64,000 nucleotides of DNA, taken from contig JAHLKX010000001.1 of assembly GCA_020444515.1 (NCBI GenBank), positions 744,001-808,000 on the forward strand, read 5' to 3'. Positions 37,303-40,784 of this stretch are shown piece after piece. The notes beneath the pieces are model-generated. The model ran no database searches and was not told the DNA's origin. It worked only from the letters and a program-made list of their open reading frames with translations. The translations under genes and the position numbers were made by a program. The stretch's first letter is position 1. The number at the start of each line of letters is the position of its first letter. The stretch comes from Bacteroidota bacterium (GTDB lineage Bacteria > Bacteroidota > Bacteroidia > Bacteroidales > JAADJA01).

Positions 37303-39420
37303 TTATTTAATAAAGTATTTTAAAATGGATAAAAATTGGCTTTTATATTTCAAAGGTTTAACTTTATCAGATTAATATACCAGAATTTTAAATAATGAAT
37401 TTTACTGCAATTGATTTTGAAACTGCAAATGAAAAACGTTGGAGTATTTGTCAGGTTGGTATTGTGAGAGTAGAACAAGGTAGAGTAATTAAACAATATG
37501 AACAGCTTATTAAGCCACCTGAGAATTTCTATGCAAGCATTAATACTCAAATTCATGGAATCTCATCTGAGGACACAATAAATGCTCCCAATTTTGCAGA
37601 AATATGGGATGATATTAAACCATTTATTGAGAATAATTTAGTAATAGCACATAATAGTAGTTTTGATGTTGATTGTCTTAATAAAACCCTGGATTTTTAT
37701 AAAATACCAATTCCACATTTCAAAATAGAATGCACATATAAAAAAACTGGTTATCGACTTGATGATCTTTGCGAAGCTTATTCAATAGAATTTCAAAACC
37801 ATCATAATGCATTGGCTGATGCAATTGCTTGTGCCAAAATATATTTAAATATTTTATACCAGATTGAACCCGACTATTCACTTGTTACCAAAAAGGAACC
37901 TAAAAATTATTTCATATTTAAGGGACATGAAAGGATTAAAGGAGACTTATTAAAACCAGATTTAGAACACGCTGATAAATCAAACCCCTTTTATGGAAAA
38001 AAAGTCGTTTTCACTGGTGCATTATCAAATATAAAGAGAAACCTAGCTGCCCAAATATTGAAAGATAAGGGTGCCGACATTGATACGTCAGTCACTAAGC
38101 GAACGAATATTGTTGTATTAGGAAAAGATCCTGGCCCTTCCAAAGTAAAAAAAATTGAAAACTTCAATAAAGCTGGTTATCAAATAAGGGTCCTAAAGGA
38201 AAGTGAATTTTTGTCAATGATTAAATAGGATTAAAGTAATTCATTCTCTAATCATATCTAAAAAAGTATTTTCATCAATAATTTCTATTCCTAATTCTTT
38301 TGCTTTATTGAGTTTATTAGGACCAACATTTTCTCCAGCAAGGAGAAGCGTGGTTCTGCTAGAAACAGATGATGAAGGGACGCCACCATTCTCTTCTATT
38401 ACTTGTTTAATCTCATCTCTTGTGAAGTTCTCCAATTTACCACTTGCTACAATAATTTTTCCATCCAACTTATTAGTTTTGATGAGGGTGGTATTTTTTA
38501 ATTCGAAATTCAAATCTTTTTCTCGAAGTCGTTTAATAAGTAAGATATTTTGATGTTTTCTAAAAAATGACATTATTGAATCAGCTATTCTTTCACCAAT
38601 CTCATCAACTAAAATTAACTCTTCATAATTTACAGAAGCTAGTTTTTCAATACTTTTAAAGTGATATGCCAGCTTCTTTGCAACAGTTTTCCCAACATAT
38701 CTAATACCTAGAGCATAAAGTACCTTATCAAAGCTTTGACTTTTAGATCTATTTACTCCATCAATGATATTATCAACTGATTTTTTTTGAAGCCTTATGA
38801 CCTTCAAAGTATTTAGCTTTACCACAATATCTTTAATCTTTTTATTATTAAAAAAAGAAATTATGTTTGCTTTTAACTCTGCACTCTTAGTGACTTCCAT
38901 TAGTTCTTTTTCATCTGCAATTGATAAGGTGTATATATTTTCAAAATAATCGGCTAAAGTTTTGGATAAGTCTTTACTTACTTTAGGGATATTTAACGCA
39001 TAGATAATATCTTCAAGAGGAATATCTCCTGTAAGGTTTTTATTGATTCCAATTTTATCAAGGAATATTGTGTTTTCATGCTTATTAAAATATTCTACTA
39101 TTTCATCATAAACTTTATCCGTATTTGTCCTATCAGGAAATTTTAAATTATTTAATTTTTTTAGCTCATCTTTAGTTACATTGCTATAATTTTTTAAATT
39201 CTTGTAGTAATCTACTAATACGGTAGCATTATAGTTTGTCATTTGCTTATACCCAATTTCGAAGGCATATATCACTTTTGATAAGGGTACTGATTCAATT
39301 TCGAAAGAATTTTCTTTAATTATCTTTTCTAAACCAATAAGATCATCTTTATTTTTTTCGAGATCGTATAGATCTGCGATGTTTTTAAGAAAACCTTTGT
39401 CTATAAGCAATTCAATTTTC
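37303..39420. other. AT-rich segment spanning the exonuclease gene and the 3' half of ligA
   Basis: Hand counts on single 60-base lines give 16 G+C at 38761-38820 and 19 at 39361-39420. They give 29 at 39421-39480 and 31 at 39841-39900. The change occurs within about 60 bases, inside the conserved LigA motif [11 protein letters not shown] (codon ~455). The segment therefore looks like imported DNA joined by recombination inside ligA. No transposase or flanking repeat was seen. Confidence 0.65.
37395..38228 (+). CDS. DnaQ-like 3'-5' exonuclease fused to a BRCT domain
   Basis: 277 residues. An N-terminal DEDDh exonuclease has Asp7 and Glu9 in AIDFETAN, an Asp in AHNSSFDVDCL, and His/Asp in NHHNALADAIACAK. 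The C-terminal ~80 residues form a BRCT domain (FYGKKVVFTGAL ... RTNIVVLGKDPGPSKVKK). Exonuclease-BRCT proteins of this type resemble the epsilon-like proteins found beside replication or repair genes. The gene converges on ligA with only 12 bases between the stops and shares its low GC. It probably trims DNA ends in repair; BRCT suggests a protein or DNA-end partner. Confidence 0.85.
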   Translation: MNFTAIDFETANEKRWSICQVGIVRVEQGRVIKQYEQLIKPPENFYASINTQIHGISSEDTINAPNFAEIWDDIKPFIENNLVIAHNSSFDVDCLNKTLDFYKIPIPHFKIECTYKKTGYRLDDLCEAYSIEFQNHHNALADAIACAKIYLNILYQIEPDYSLVTKKEPKNYFIFKGHERIKGDLLKPDLEHADKSNPFYGKKVVFTGALSNIKRNLAAQILKDKGADIDTSVTKRTNIVVLGKDPGPSKVKKIENFNKAGYQIRVLKESEFLSMIK

Positions 39421-40784
39421 CCTTCACCCAGGCTGTCAATATCCATTGCATCTCGGCTGATGAAGTGCAAAATACGTCCTTTGATTTGAGGAGGGCAACT
39501 TTCCTCATTGGGACAATAGTGTTGCGCTTCGCCTTCCTTGCGGATTAATGGTGTTCCACATTCAGGGCACTGTGAAATAAATTCAACCGGTTCAGCATCC
39601 TGGGGTCGTTGCGACAGATCCACCGCTGTGATCTTGGGGATGATCTCACCACCTTTCTCAACAAACACCCTGTCGCCGATCCTTACATCCAGTGCCTTGA
39701 TAATATCAGCATTGTGCAGGGAAGCGCGCTTTACTGTTGTTCCGGCCAGCAAGACAGGCTCCAGGTTGGCTACCGGTGTGATGGCCCCTGTCCGGCCCAC
39801 CTGGTAATCGATGGAGTCGAGCCGGGTAATGGCCTGCTCCGCTTTGTATTTATAAGCAATGGCCCAGCGCGGTGATTTGGCAGTCACACCCAGATCGTCC
39901 TGCTGAGCATAACGATTCACTTTGATCACCACTCCATCAATCTCAAAGGGCAGCTGTTCGCGCCCTTTTTCCCATTCATCGATCAGTTTTAATACTTCAT
40001 CGATATCAGCACATTTGGCGATGTAATCCGGCACTTTGAAACCCCAGCTTTTGCAAGCTTTGAGGTTATCATAATGATTATCATACGGCAGGTTATCACC
40101 CAAAATAAAATAAAGAAAACAATCGAGCGGTCTTTTGGCCACCTCGGCAGAATCCTGCATCTTTAAACTGCCCGAGGCCGAGTTACGTGGGTTTGCAAAT
40201 GGATCGTCACCGTTTTCCACCCGGCTTTTATTCAAACGAATAAACCCTTCTTTGGTCATGAATATCTCTCCGCGAATTACAAAGGATTGTGGAAAATCCG
40301 TGCCCTGTAACCGCAAAGGGATCGATCGGATCGTTTTTACATTGGTTGTCACATCATCGCCCTGAACACCATCGCCGCGGGTGACGGCCCTTAACAGTTT
40401 GCCATTCTCGTAAGTCAAACTGATGGAGACACCGTCGTATTTTAGCTCGCATACATATTCAAAGTCATCACCGATGGCTTTCCTGACACGGGTATCGAAT
40501 TCACGCAGTTCCTGCGCTGAATAAGTGTTTGATAAACTCAGCATGGGGTATGCATGGCGCACCTGCTCGAAATCTTTGGTAATGTCGCCTCCAACCCTTT
40601 TGGTCGGTGAATCGGGATCGGCAAATTCGGGAAATTGTTCTTCCAGGTCTTCCAGTTCTTTCAATAGCATATCGAAAGCATAATCCGATATCACCGGTTT
40701 TGAAAGCACATAATATTTATAGTTGTGCTCATTAAGTTGTTCGGTCAGTTCGTCGATGCGGGCCCGGGCTGCATTTTTATCCAT
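38241..40784 (-). CDS. ligA: NAD+-dependent DNA ligase, mosaic with two extra helix-hairpin-helix units
   Basis: 847 residues from the ATG at 40784 (a longer frame lacks family support), against about 670 normally. Ia and adenylation domain: nucleotidyl Lys115 in CELKYDG. Then the OB fold, and zinc-finger Cys406, 409, 424, 430. The usual GLEK (484-487) is normally followed directly by the KKS-x-x-NI helix, but that helix appears here only at 667. The ~180 residues between hold two units like the canonical one: [17 protein letters not shown] (from ~500), [17 protein letters not shown] (from ~589), and the canonical [17 protein letters not shown] (from ~684). A C-terminal BRCT domain ends the protein. 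Essential ligase of replication and repair, most likely active since all adenylation motifs are present. Confidence 0.93.

Follow-up and report, generated by a model that had tools for sequence, protein, structure and literature searches.

A NAD-dependent DNA ligase with two additional helix-hairpin-helix units in the Bacteroidales

A 64,000-nucleotide stretch of a Bacteroidota genome (contig JAHLKX010000001.1, positions 744,001 to 808,000; referred to here as the window, and its genome as G000) carries a ligA gene whose product has 176 residues more than the E. coli enzyme. What these residues are, which other bacteria share them and what they might do for the ligase are the questions raised by this locus. 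The open reading frame (ORF) at 38241-40784 on the minus strand encodes 847 amino acids counted from the ATG. The protein scored 841.8 bits against the curated NCBIfam model NF005932 (cut-off 369) and 826.7 bits against TIGR00575 (cut-off 444.45), and by these scores it is the NAD-dependent DNA ligase (LigA) of the window genome. Its membership stands despite the insert, as extra units or length are not defining features in the curated models. Pfam domains were found in the usual order of adenylation, OB, zinc finger, helix-hairpin-helix (HhH) and BRCT. The alignment with the E. coli LigA ended at window residue 487 and restarted at 664, so that the extra residues (488-663) lie between the landmarks GLEK at 484 and KKSVDNII at 667, where the initial annotation had placed an insertion of about 180 residues. 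The gene is laid out as follows, all features being on the minus strand.

38241-40784, minus strand: ligA, NAD-dependent DNA ligase, 847 amino acids (NF005932, TIGR00575)
39828-40784, minus strand: N-terminal NAD-binding and adenylation domains, residues 1-319, with Lys115 (PF01653 at 70-316, PF22745 at 9-54)
39597-39827, minus strand: OB-fold domain, residues 320-396 (PF03120)
39492-39572, minus strand: C4 zinc finger, residues 405-431, with C406, C409, C424 and C430 (PF03119)
39324-39467, minus strand: first half of HhH domain 3b, residues 440-487, as in ordinary LigA (E. coli LigA alignment; AlphaFold2 helices)
38796-39323, minus strand: insert, residues 488-663 (alignment with ordinary LigAs)
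39054-39299, minus strand: extra (HhH)2-like unit A, residues 496-577 (pairwise, hidden Markov model, AlphaFold2 and profile-profile evidence)
38805-39038, minus strand: extra (HhH)2-like unit B, residues 583-660 (same four lines of evidence)
38505-38795, minus strand: ordinary last (HhH)2 unit C, residues 664-760 (HHH_2 at 688-750; hidden Markov model 126.8 bits)
38247-38477, minus strand: BRCT domain, residues 770-846 (PF00533 at 770-845)

The three units, which had been proposed to be alignable from their letters, were compared by several independent routes that agreed with one another. In BLOSUM62 local alignments set against 1000 shuffles, units A and B each aligned with unit C at z values of 9.1 and 9.9 (0/1000 as good), and A aligned with B at a z of 5.2 (1/1000 as good). 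A hidden Markov model (HMM) made from 26 ordinary LigAs, using their last HhH unit, gave 19.2 bits for unit A (497-577) and 28.8 bits for unit B (586-657) of the window protein, whereas none of 561 controls, reversed or shuffled, scored above 7.5 bits. The Pfam family HHH_2 matched the protein in two stretches. Across 11 variant ligases, meaning LigAs that carry the insert with A and B, the controls were exceeded by unit A in eight and by unit B likewise in eight. Profile comparison with hhalign of 18 variants against unit C of 33 ordinary LigAs returned probabilities of 98.7% for A with C, 98.1% for B with C and 96.8% for A with B. An AlphaFold2 model of residues 440-765 from 19 sequences (mean pLDDT 89.4) repeated a series of five helices in identical order in A, B and C, with helix starts offset by 95-96 residues between B and C and by 179-184 residues between A and C, and the seven best Foldseek matches in the PDB were all LigA. 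Several results weigh against this assignment. The HMM controls were not exceeded by unit A in G056 (6.7 bits), by either unit in G029 and in G190, or by unit B in G347, the Foldseek superpositions were loose (rmsd 15-19 over 164-200 columns), and the full-length AlphaFold2 model (pLDDT 77.7, pTM 0.48) was too weak for the global arrangement to be read from it.

Judged by these comparisons, units A and B share ancestry with the (HhH)2 unit that comes last in ordinary LigAs, and they are predicted to adopt the helix-hairpin-helix fold. The initial annotation regarded the HhH domain as normally present once. Ordinary domain 3b already contains four HhH motifs (excerpted text of PMC10504179), so the part that is tripled here is its last (HhH)2 unit, and it is in this narrower form that the statement holds. 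Units A and B are thus diverged duplicates of that unit, placed between the two halves of domain 3b. An assembly or frame artefact has practically no probability left, being refuted by the open 847-codon frame on an 873-kb contig and by the matching architecture of 11 further sampled genomes as well as of named records, which include the isolates Odoribacter laneus YIT 12061 and Butyricimonas synergistica DSM 23225.

The three-unit LigA is a rare and patchy natural variant in the Bacteroidales. Among 60 relatives, 59 of which gave a match, the insert was found in two genomes of other families, within one full-length alignment. None of 15 LigAs of the same genus carried it, a sixteenth genome of the genus, G002, giving no LigA, and vertical inheritance throughout the genus is therefore unsupported. 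The variant ligase was present in 12 of 393 sampled genomes of the order, ten of them recovered by a first profile (three being its own members) and G190 and G158 by a broader profile of which G190 is a member. Across the phylum, where 395 genomes were sampled, the full insert was detected in the window genome only (E 1e-9). When GTDB contigs were scanned with one peptide pattern as the seed, 18 named loci emerged, of which 15 were titled Odoribacter, Butyricimonas or Odoribacteraceae and one Sanguibacteroides (Porphyromonadaceae in NCBI), the remainder being metagenome-assembled genomes titled 'Bacteroides sp.' and 'Bacteroidales bacterium'. The insert lay inside a LigA frame of 838-963 codons, stop to stop, at 17 of these 18 loci, and L108 runs off its contig. 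A point that counts against the low frequency is that G158 was detected only at E 8e-10, and more divergent variants may have escaped. The sequence of the insert shows kinship between families.

The initial annotation had the catalytic lysine and the zinc cysteines intact, and Lys115 (in KxDG) and Cys406, Cys409, Cys424 and Cys430 are indeed retained in the window protein. All five residues were invariant in 18/18 variants (alignment A6, without the partial L108; alignment A3 was made without G190 and G158 and alignment A7 without G158). LigA is also the sole PF01653 match in the window genome, which is 94.7% complete. Given the conserved residues and its being the one such match, the window LigA should be active with ordinary catalysis.

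Conserved motifs were observed at the two ends of the insert, VPLxKVIYAF and KLNTL. The ratio of nonsynonymous to synonymous substitution rates (dN/dS, omega) could be used in 4 of 78 pairs drawn from 13 named loci, where the dS of the N-terminal part was below 1.2, and was 0.11, 0.40, 0.37 and 0.32 for the insert, whose own dS was 1.3 and 1.7 in the last two. Omega in the same pairs was 0.03-0.28 for the catalytic half and 0.04-0.46 for unit C. By these ratios the insert is under purifying selection.

Other long LigAs were also encountered. In the variant LigA of G358 (L089 4423-7383, a frame of 986 amino acids), the last HhH unit is interrupted by about 130 further residues, which follow the site equivalent to window residue 715. 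Three LigAs of family f128 from another order of the same class (L175, L178 and L179; 827-845 amino acids) were considered as the same variant and rejected, their insert being unalignable to A and B (hhalign 0.3%); the HhH HMM found one unit only in each. Their insert stands in the same place and is perhaps a second, independent extension of domain 3b. A LigA of G622 from the same class (L161, a frame of 820 amino acids) is likewise long and seemingly has extra residues ahead of the last HhH unit.

The patchy distribution raises the question of how the insert came to be where it is, and the two halves of the gene gave different answers. The DNA identity between the window ligA and that of the nearest relative, G011, was 72-82% up to about residue 440 and 54-67% thereafter. 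An unmatched tract takes in the 3' part of ligA and the gene beyond its 3' end.

37284-39419, no strand: 3' half of ligA together with the exonuclease gene, a tract unmatched in G011, whose corresponding stretch is 926 bases long (blastn)
37395-38228, plus strand: gene for a 277-amino-acid protein with a DEDDh 3'-5' exonuclease-like domain and a C-terminal BRCT domain (Pfam; relatives)

The flanks of the tract match G011 at 76.5% (33001-37283) and 70.7% (39420-42474). The window region 40935-42523, upstream of ligA, holds genes for a 4'-phosphopantetheinyl transferase and a patatin-like phospholipase, and the same order is seen in G011.

Trees were built from 54 ligases, comprising the 12 variants of the sampled genomes, six of the 18 named loci, 33 ordinary LigAs and the three f128 LigAs. 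Named loci outside the trees were near-duplicates, partial or dropped for set size, and the trees likewise omitted genome G001 and the partial L019 and L021. In the catalytic-half tree, the ordinary ligases with which G000, G348 and G358 grouped came from their own genus or family, those grouping with G190 came from a different family, and a single clade of variants was rejected (p 3e-4 for 16 variants, p 8e-9 for 18; quick tree). In the tree of the last HhH unit and BRCT domain, 16 of the 18 variants fell in one clade (98/98). The catalytic and 3' halves of the variant ligA thus seem, from these trees, to have different histories, and the well-supported C-terminal branch set against the rejected catalytic-half clade fits, without proving it, an exchange of the 3' half as a module.

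A number of observations argue against such an exchange. Approximately unbiased (AU) tests on the C-terminal part, for which the alignment is short, rejected none of the groupings tried: G348 or G358 placed in its own family (p 0.20 and p 0.15, respectively), G000 joined to G011 (p 0.39) and the 18 variants as a single group (p 0.054). Unit C alone gave a largest variant clade of 11/18, and BRCT alone one of 16/18 together with an ordinary ligase, which indicates that the exchange signal comes largely from BRCT, and convergent or accelerated evolution may be the source of the C-terminal signal. The window's own unit C and BRCT fall inside its genus (99/99), apart from the other variants. In the window the insert may have entered a 3' end of the genus type, or the 3' end may have diverged fast. 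A phage origin of the insert was considered and rejected, there being no relative in viral contigs or phages: four stretches of viral contigs matched one peptide pattern and none was confirmed as a relative of the insert, and the phage search found no copy of it.

The neighbouring exonuclease-BRCT gene recurs beside the variant ligA. The window protein contains the strings IDFET at 6, HNSSFDVD at 86 and HNALADA at 137, which we take to be DEDDh motifs. It scored 214.1 bits against NF004844/PRK06195, below the curated cut-off of 373, and on this score it resembles that family and is short of its membership cut-off. The gene adjoins the variant ligA in G000, G056, G348, G190 and G358, which belong to five families (f1, f41, f73, f72 and f97). 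With the start taken as the first ATG, it overlaps ligA by 11, 8, 4 and 11 nt in G056, G348, G190 and G358, respectively; gene overlaps of a few nucleotides usually mean translational coupling. A full exonuclease-BRCT gene (E <=1e-40 with both domains covered) was present in 11 of the 393 genomes, and the variant ligase occurred in 6 of these 11 and in 6 of the other 382. The co-occurrence gave a Fisher p of 8e-8, 1.5e-6 without G000 and 2.6e-5 without G000 and G056, uncorrected for kinship and with genomes lacking a detected LigA kept in the counts. Five of the six exonuclease-BRCT genes in variant genomes adjoin ligA. Among the other genomes with the gene, G136, G178 and G018 have an ordinary LigA on a different contig, and G171 and G129 show no LigA. 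The exonuclease of G348 (L084 3521-4627, a frame of 368 amino acids) seemingly has two BRCT domains, as two matches to the BRCT part were found. The relative in G347 (L069 802-2433, a frame of 543 amino acids), which lies far from ligA, has about 230 extra N-terminal residues.

The strength of this association is limited in several respects. In the window the two genes are convergent, with 12 bases between the two ORF ends, and do not form one transcript. G000 and G056 supplied the sequences for the exonuclease profile, so that relatives like theirs are favoured, and the gene was chosen for lying at this locus. Six of the 12 variant genomes (G029, G158 and four of f106) have no full exonuclease-BRCT gene at E 1e-40; with these and the distant gene of G347, the protein cannot be a general partner of the variant ligase and is not required by it. 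Matches to the exonuclease were also seen in 67 plasmid records (over 80% of the query in 23), and the ten best plasmid relatives listed covered 99-100% of the protein at 32-35% identity, so the gene can travel on its own. The plasmid hosts of these ten were Staphylococcus, Hymenobacter, Priestia, Ligilactobacillus and Rhodococcus.

What the extra units do was approached through their glycines and charge. Hairpin glycines of HhH units bind DNA phosphates. The unit C glycines 693, 698 and 730 were kept in 94-100% of 18 variants and in 100% of 33 ordinary LigAs. Aligned by profile, unit A retains the equivalent of 693 alone (Gly511, 83%), and unit B has lost all three. Each hairpin of unit B does have a glycine one position earlier in most variants, at 601 (78%) and 632 (67%); the window protein has neither, reading IPKVSKD and lacking the second of the two. 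Mean net charge over the 18 variants was +0.6 for A and -3.3 for B.

The initial annotation had offered a longer DNA grip or extra protein contacts. The loss of most hairpin glycines in A and B weakens the former, and the latter fits somewhat better, with a candidate partner gene adjacent. We favour, at a probability of about 0.46, a domain 3b lengthened by two duplicates that act in protein docking or spacing. Catalysis would stay in the ordinary domains, and units A and B, with most hairpin glycines lost, would form an extended arm for docking a partner or for spacing the clamp. In genomes that have it, the exonuclease-BRCT protein would be the best candidate partner and might trim 3' ends at the nick before sealing. 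The charge of the window protein runs counter to this reading. Its units A, B and C have net charges of 0, -2 and +4 and the whole stretch 488-765 carries +6, compared with a variant mean of -4.9 and +0.2 for the 33 ordinary LigAs over the same columns, so that here, unlike in the family mean, charge is no argument against DNA contact. The extra units resemble HhH folds adapted to a structural role or to binding protein, though DNA may be contacted through basic linkers.

A credible if doubtful alternative is that A and B extend the DNA contact of domain 3b itself, as in topoisomerase V, and raise affinity or processivity. They share the predicted fold of a DNA-binding unit, the window stretch 488-765 is positively charged as given above, and in topoisomerase V the DNA is wrapped by tandem (HhH)2 domains, which serve as a processivity factor and make few direct contacts (excerpted text of PMC9489208). 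Topoisomerase V was also the best non-ligase Foldseek match, a weak one (E 0.037, prob 0.51). Such a clamp is harder to reconcile with the loss of most hairpin glycines from A and B, which goes further in the window protein, and with a unit B that is acidic on average, as opposed to the positive track of topoisomerase V (same excerpt). It is less plausible again that the exonuclease-BRCT gene and the ligA 3' half (extra HhH units, last HhH unit and BRCT) are exchanged among Bacteroidales as one cassette, which is joined to native catalytic halves and in which the extra units would recruit the exonuclease to give a two-component, nick-proofreading ligase.

The insert could also be a tolerated duplication without gained function, neutral or slightly costly, kept by drift and passed on with the 3' end of the gene. 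Its rarity (12/393, with 0/15 in the genus) and an omega above that of the catalytic half would agree with this. An insert dN/dS well below 1 and within the range of unit C, the conserved motifs at both insert ends and the repeated linkage to one gene, exonuclease-BRCT, make it improbable. Hardly to be expected is an evasion of a LigA inhibitor, for example of a phage or rival bacterium, by a swap of the 3' half with the units as decoys or shields. The patchy spread and the differing tree positions of the two ligA halves would suit such a swap, whereas no insert copy was found in the viral-contig or phage searches, and we know of no such inhibitor of LigA.

Compared with known systems, the parts are known and the arrangement is new. 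The LigAs of E. coli (2owo), Thermus (1dgs) and Deinococcus (8ak4) are like the window protein in domain order, catalytic lysine and zinc cysteines; what sets it apart from them is the 176-residue insert in domain 3b, made of two (HhH)2-like units. Topoisomerase V of Methanopyrus kandleri, with 12 tandem (HhH)2 domains and a positively charged track, is a known precedent for an enzyme lengthened by such units (excerpted text of PMC9489208); the fold match to it is weak, and it differs in that most hairpin glycines are lost in the extra units of the window. The two-domain build of the neighbour is shared with NF004844/PRK06195 and with plasmid genes annotated as 'exonuclease domain-containing protein', although its 214 bits are below the family cut-off. 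The proposed pair is analogous, no kinship being implied, to APE1 with DNA ligase 1 or III-alpha, where a 3' exonuclease proofreads ends and the ligase seals them (excerpted text of PMC11176775). Among the titles and abstract openings listed in searches of open-licence PMC papers, no description was found of a LigA with tandem extra HhH units or of an operon of ligA and exonuclease-BRCT.

The domain plan of LigA, a textbook enzyme, is commonly presented as fixed, and a recurring form with two more HhH units departs from that plan. The variant gene provides a test of whether a core replication gene swaps its halves as modules, and the exonuclease gene overlapping ligA in four families provides a test of whether 3'-end trimming is coupled to nick sealing in bacteria. 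Variant LigAs may supply ligases with altered nick binding or fidelity. If the cassette of ligA 3' half and exonuclease proved true, it would be a bacterial counterpart of the exonuclease-proofread ligation of eukaryotic repair.

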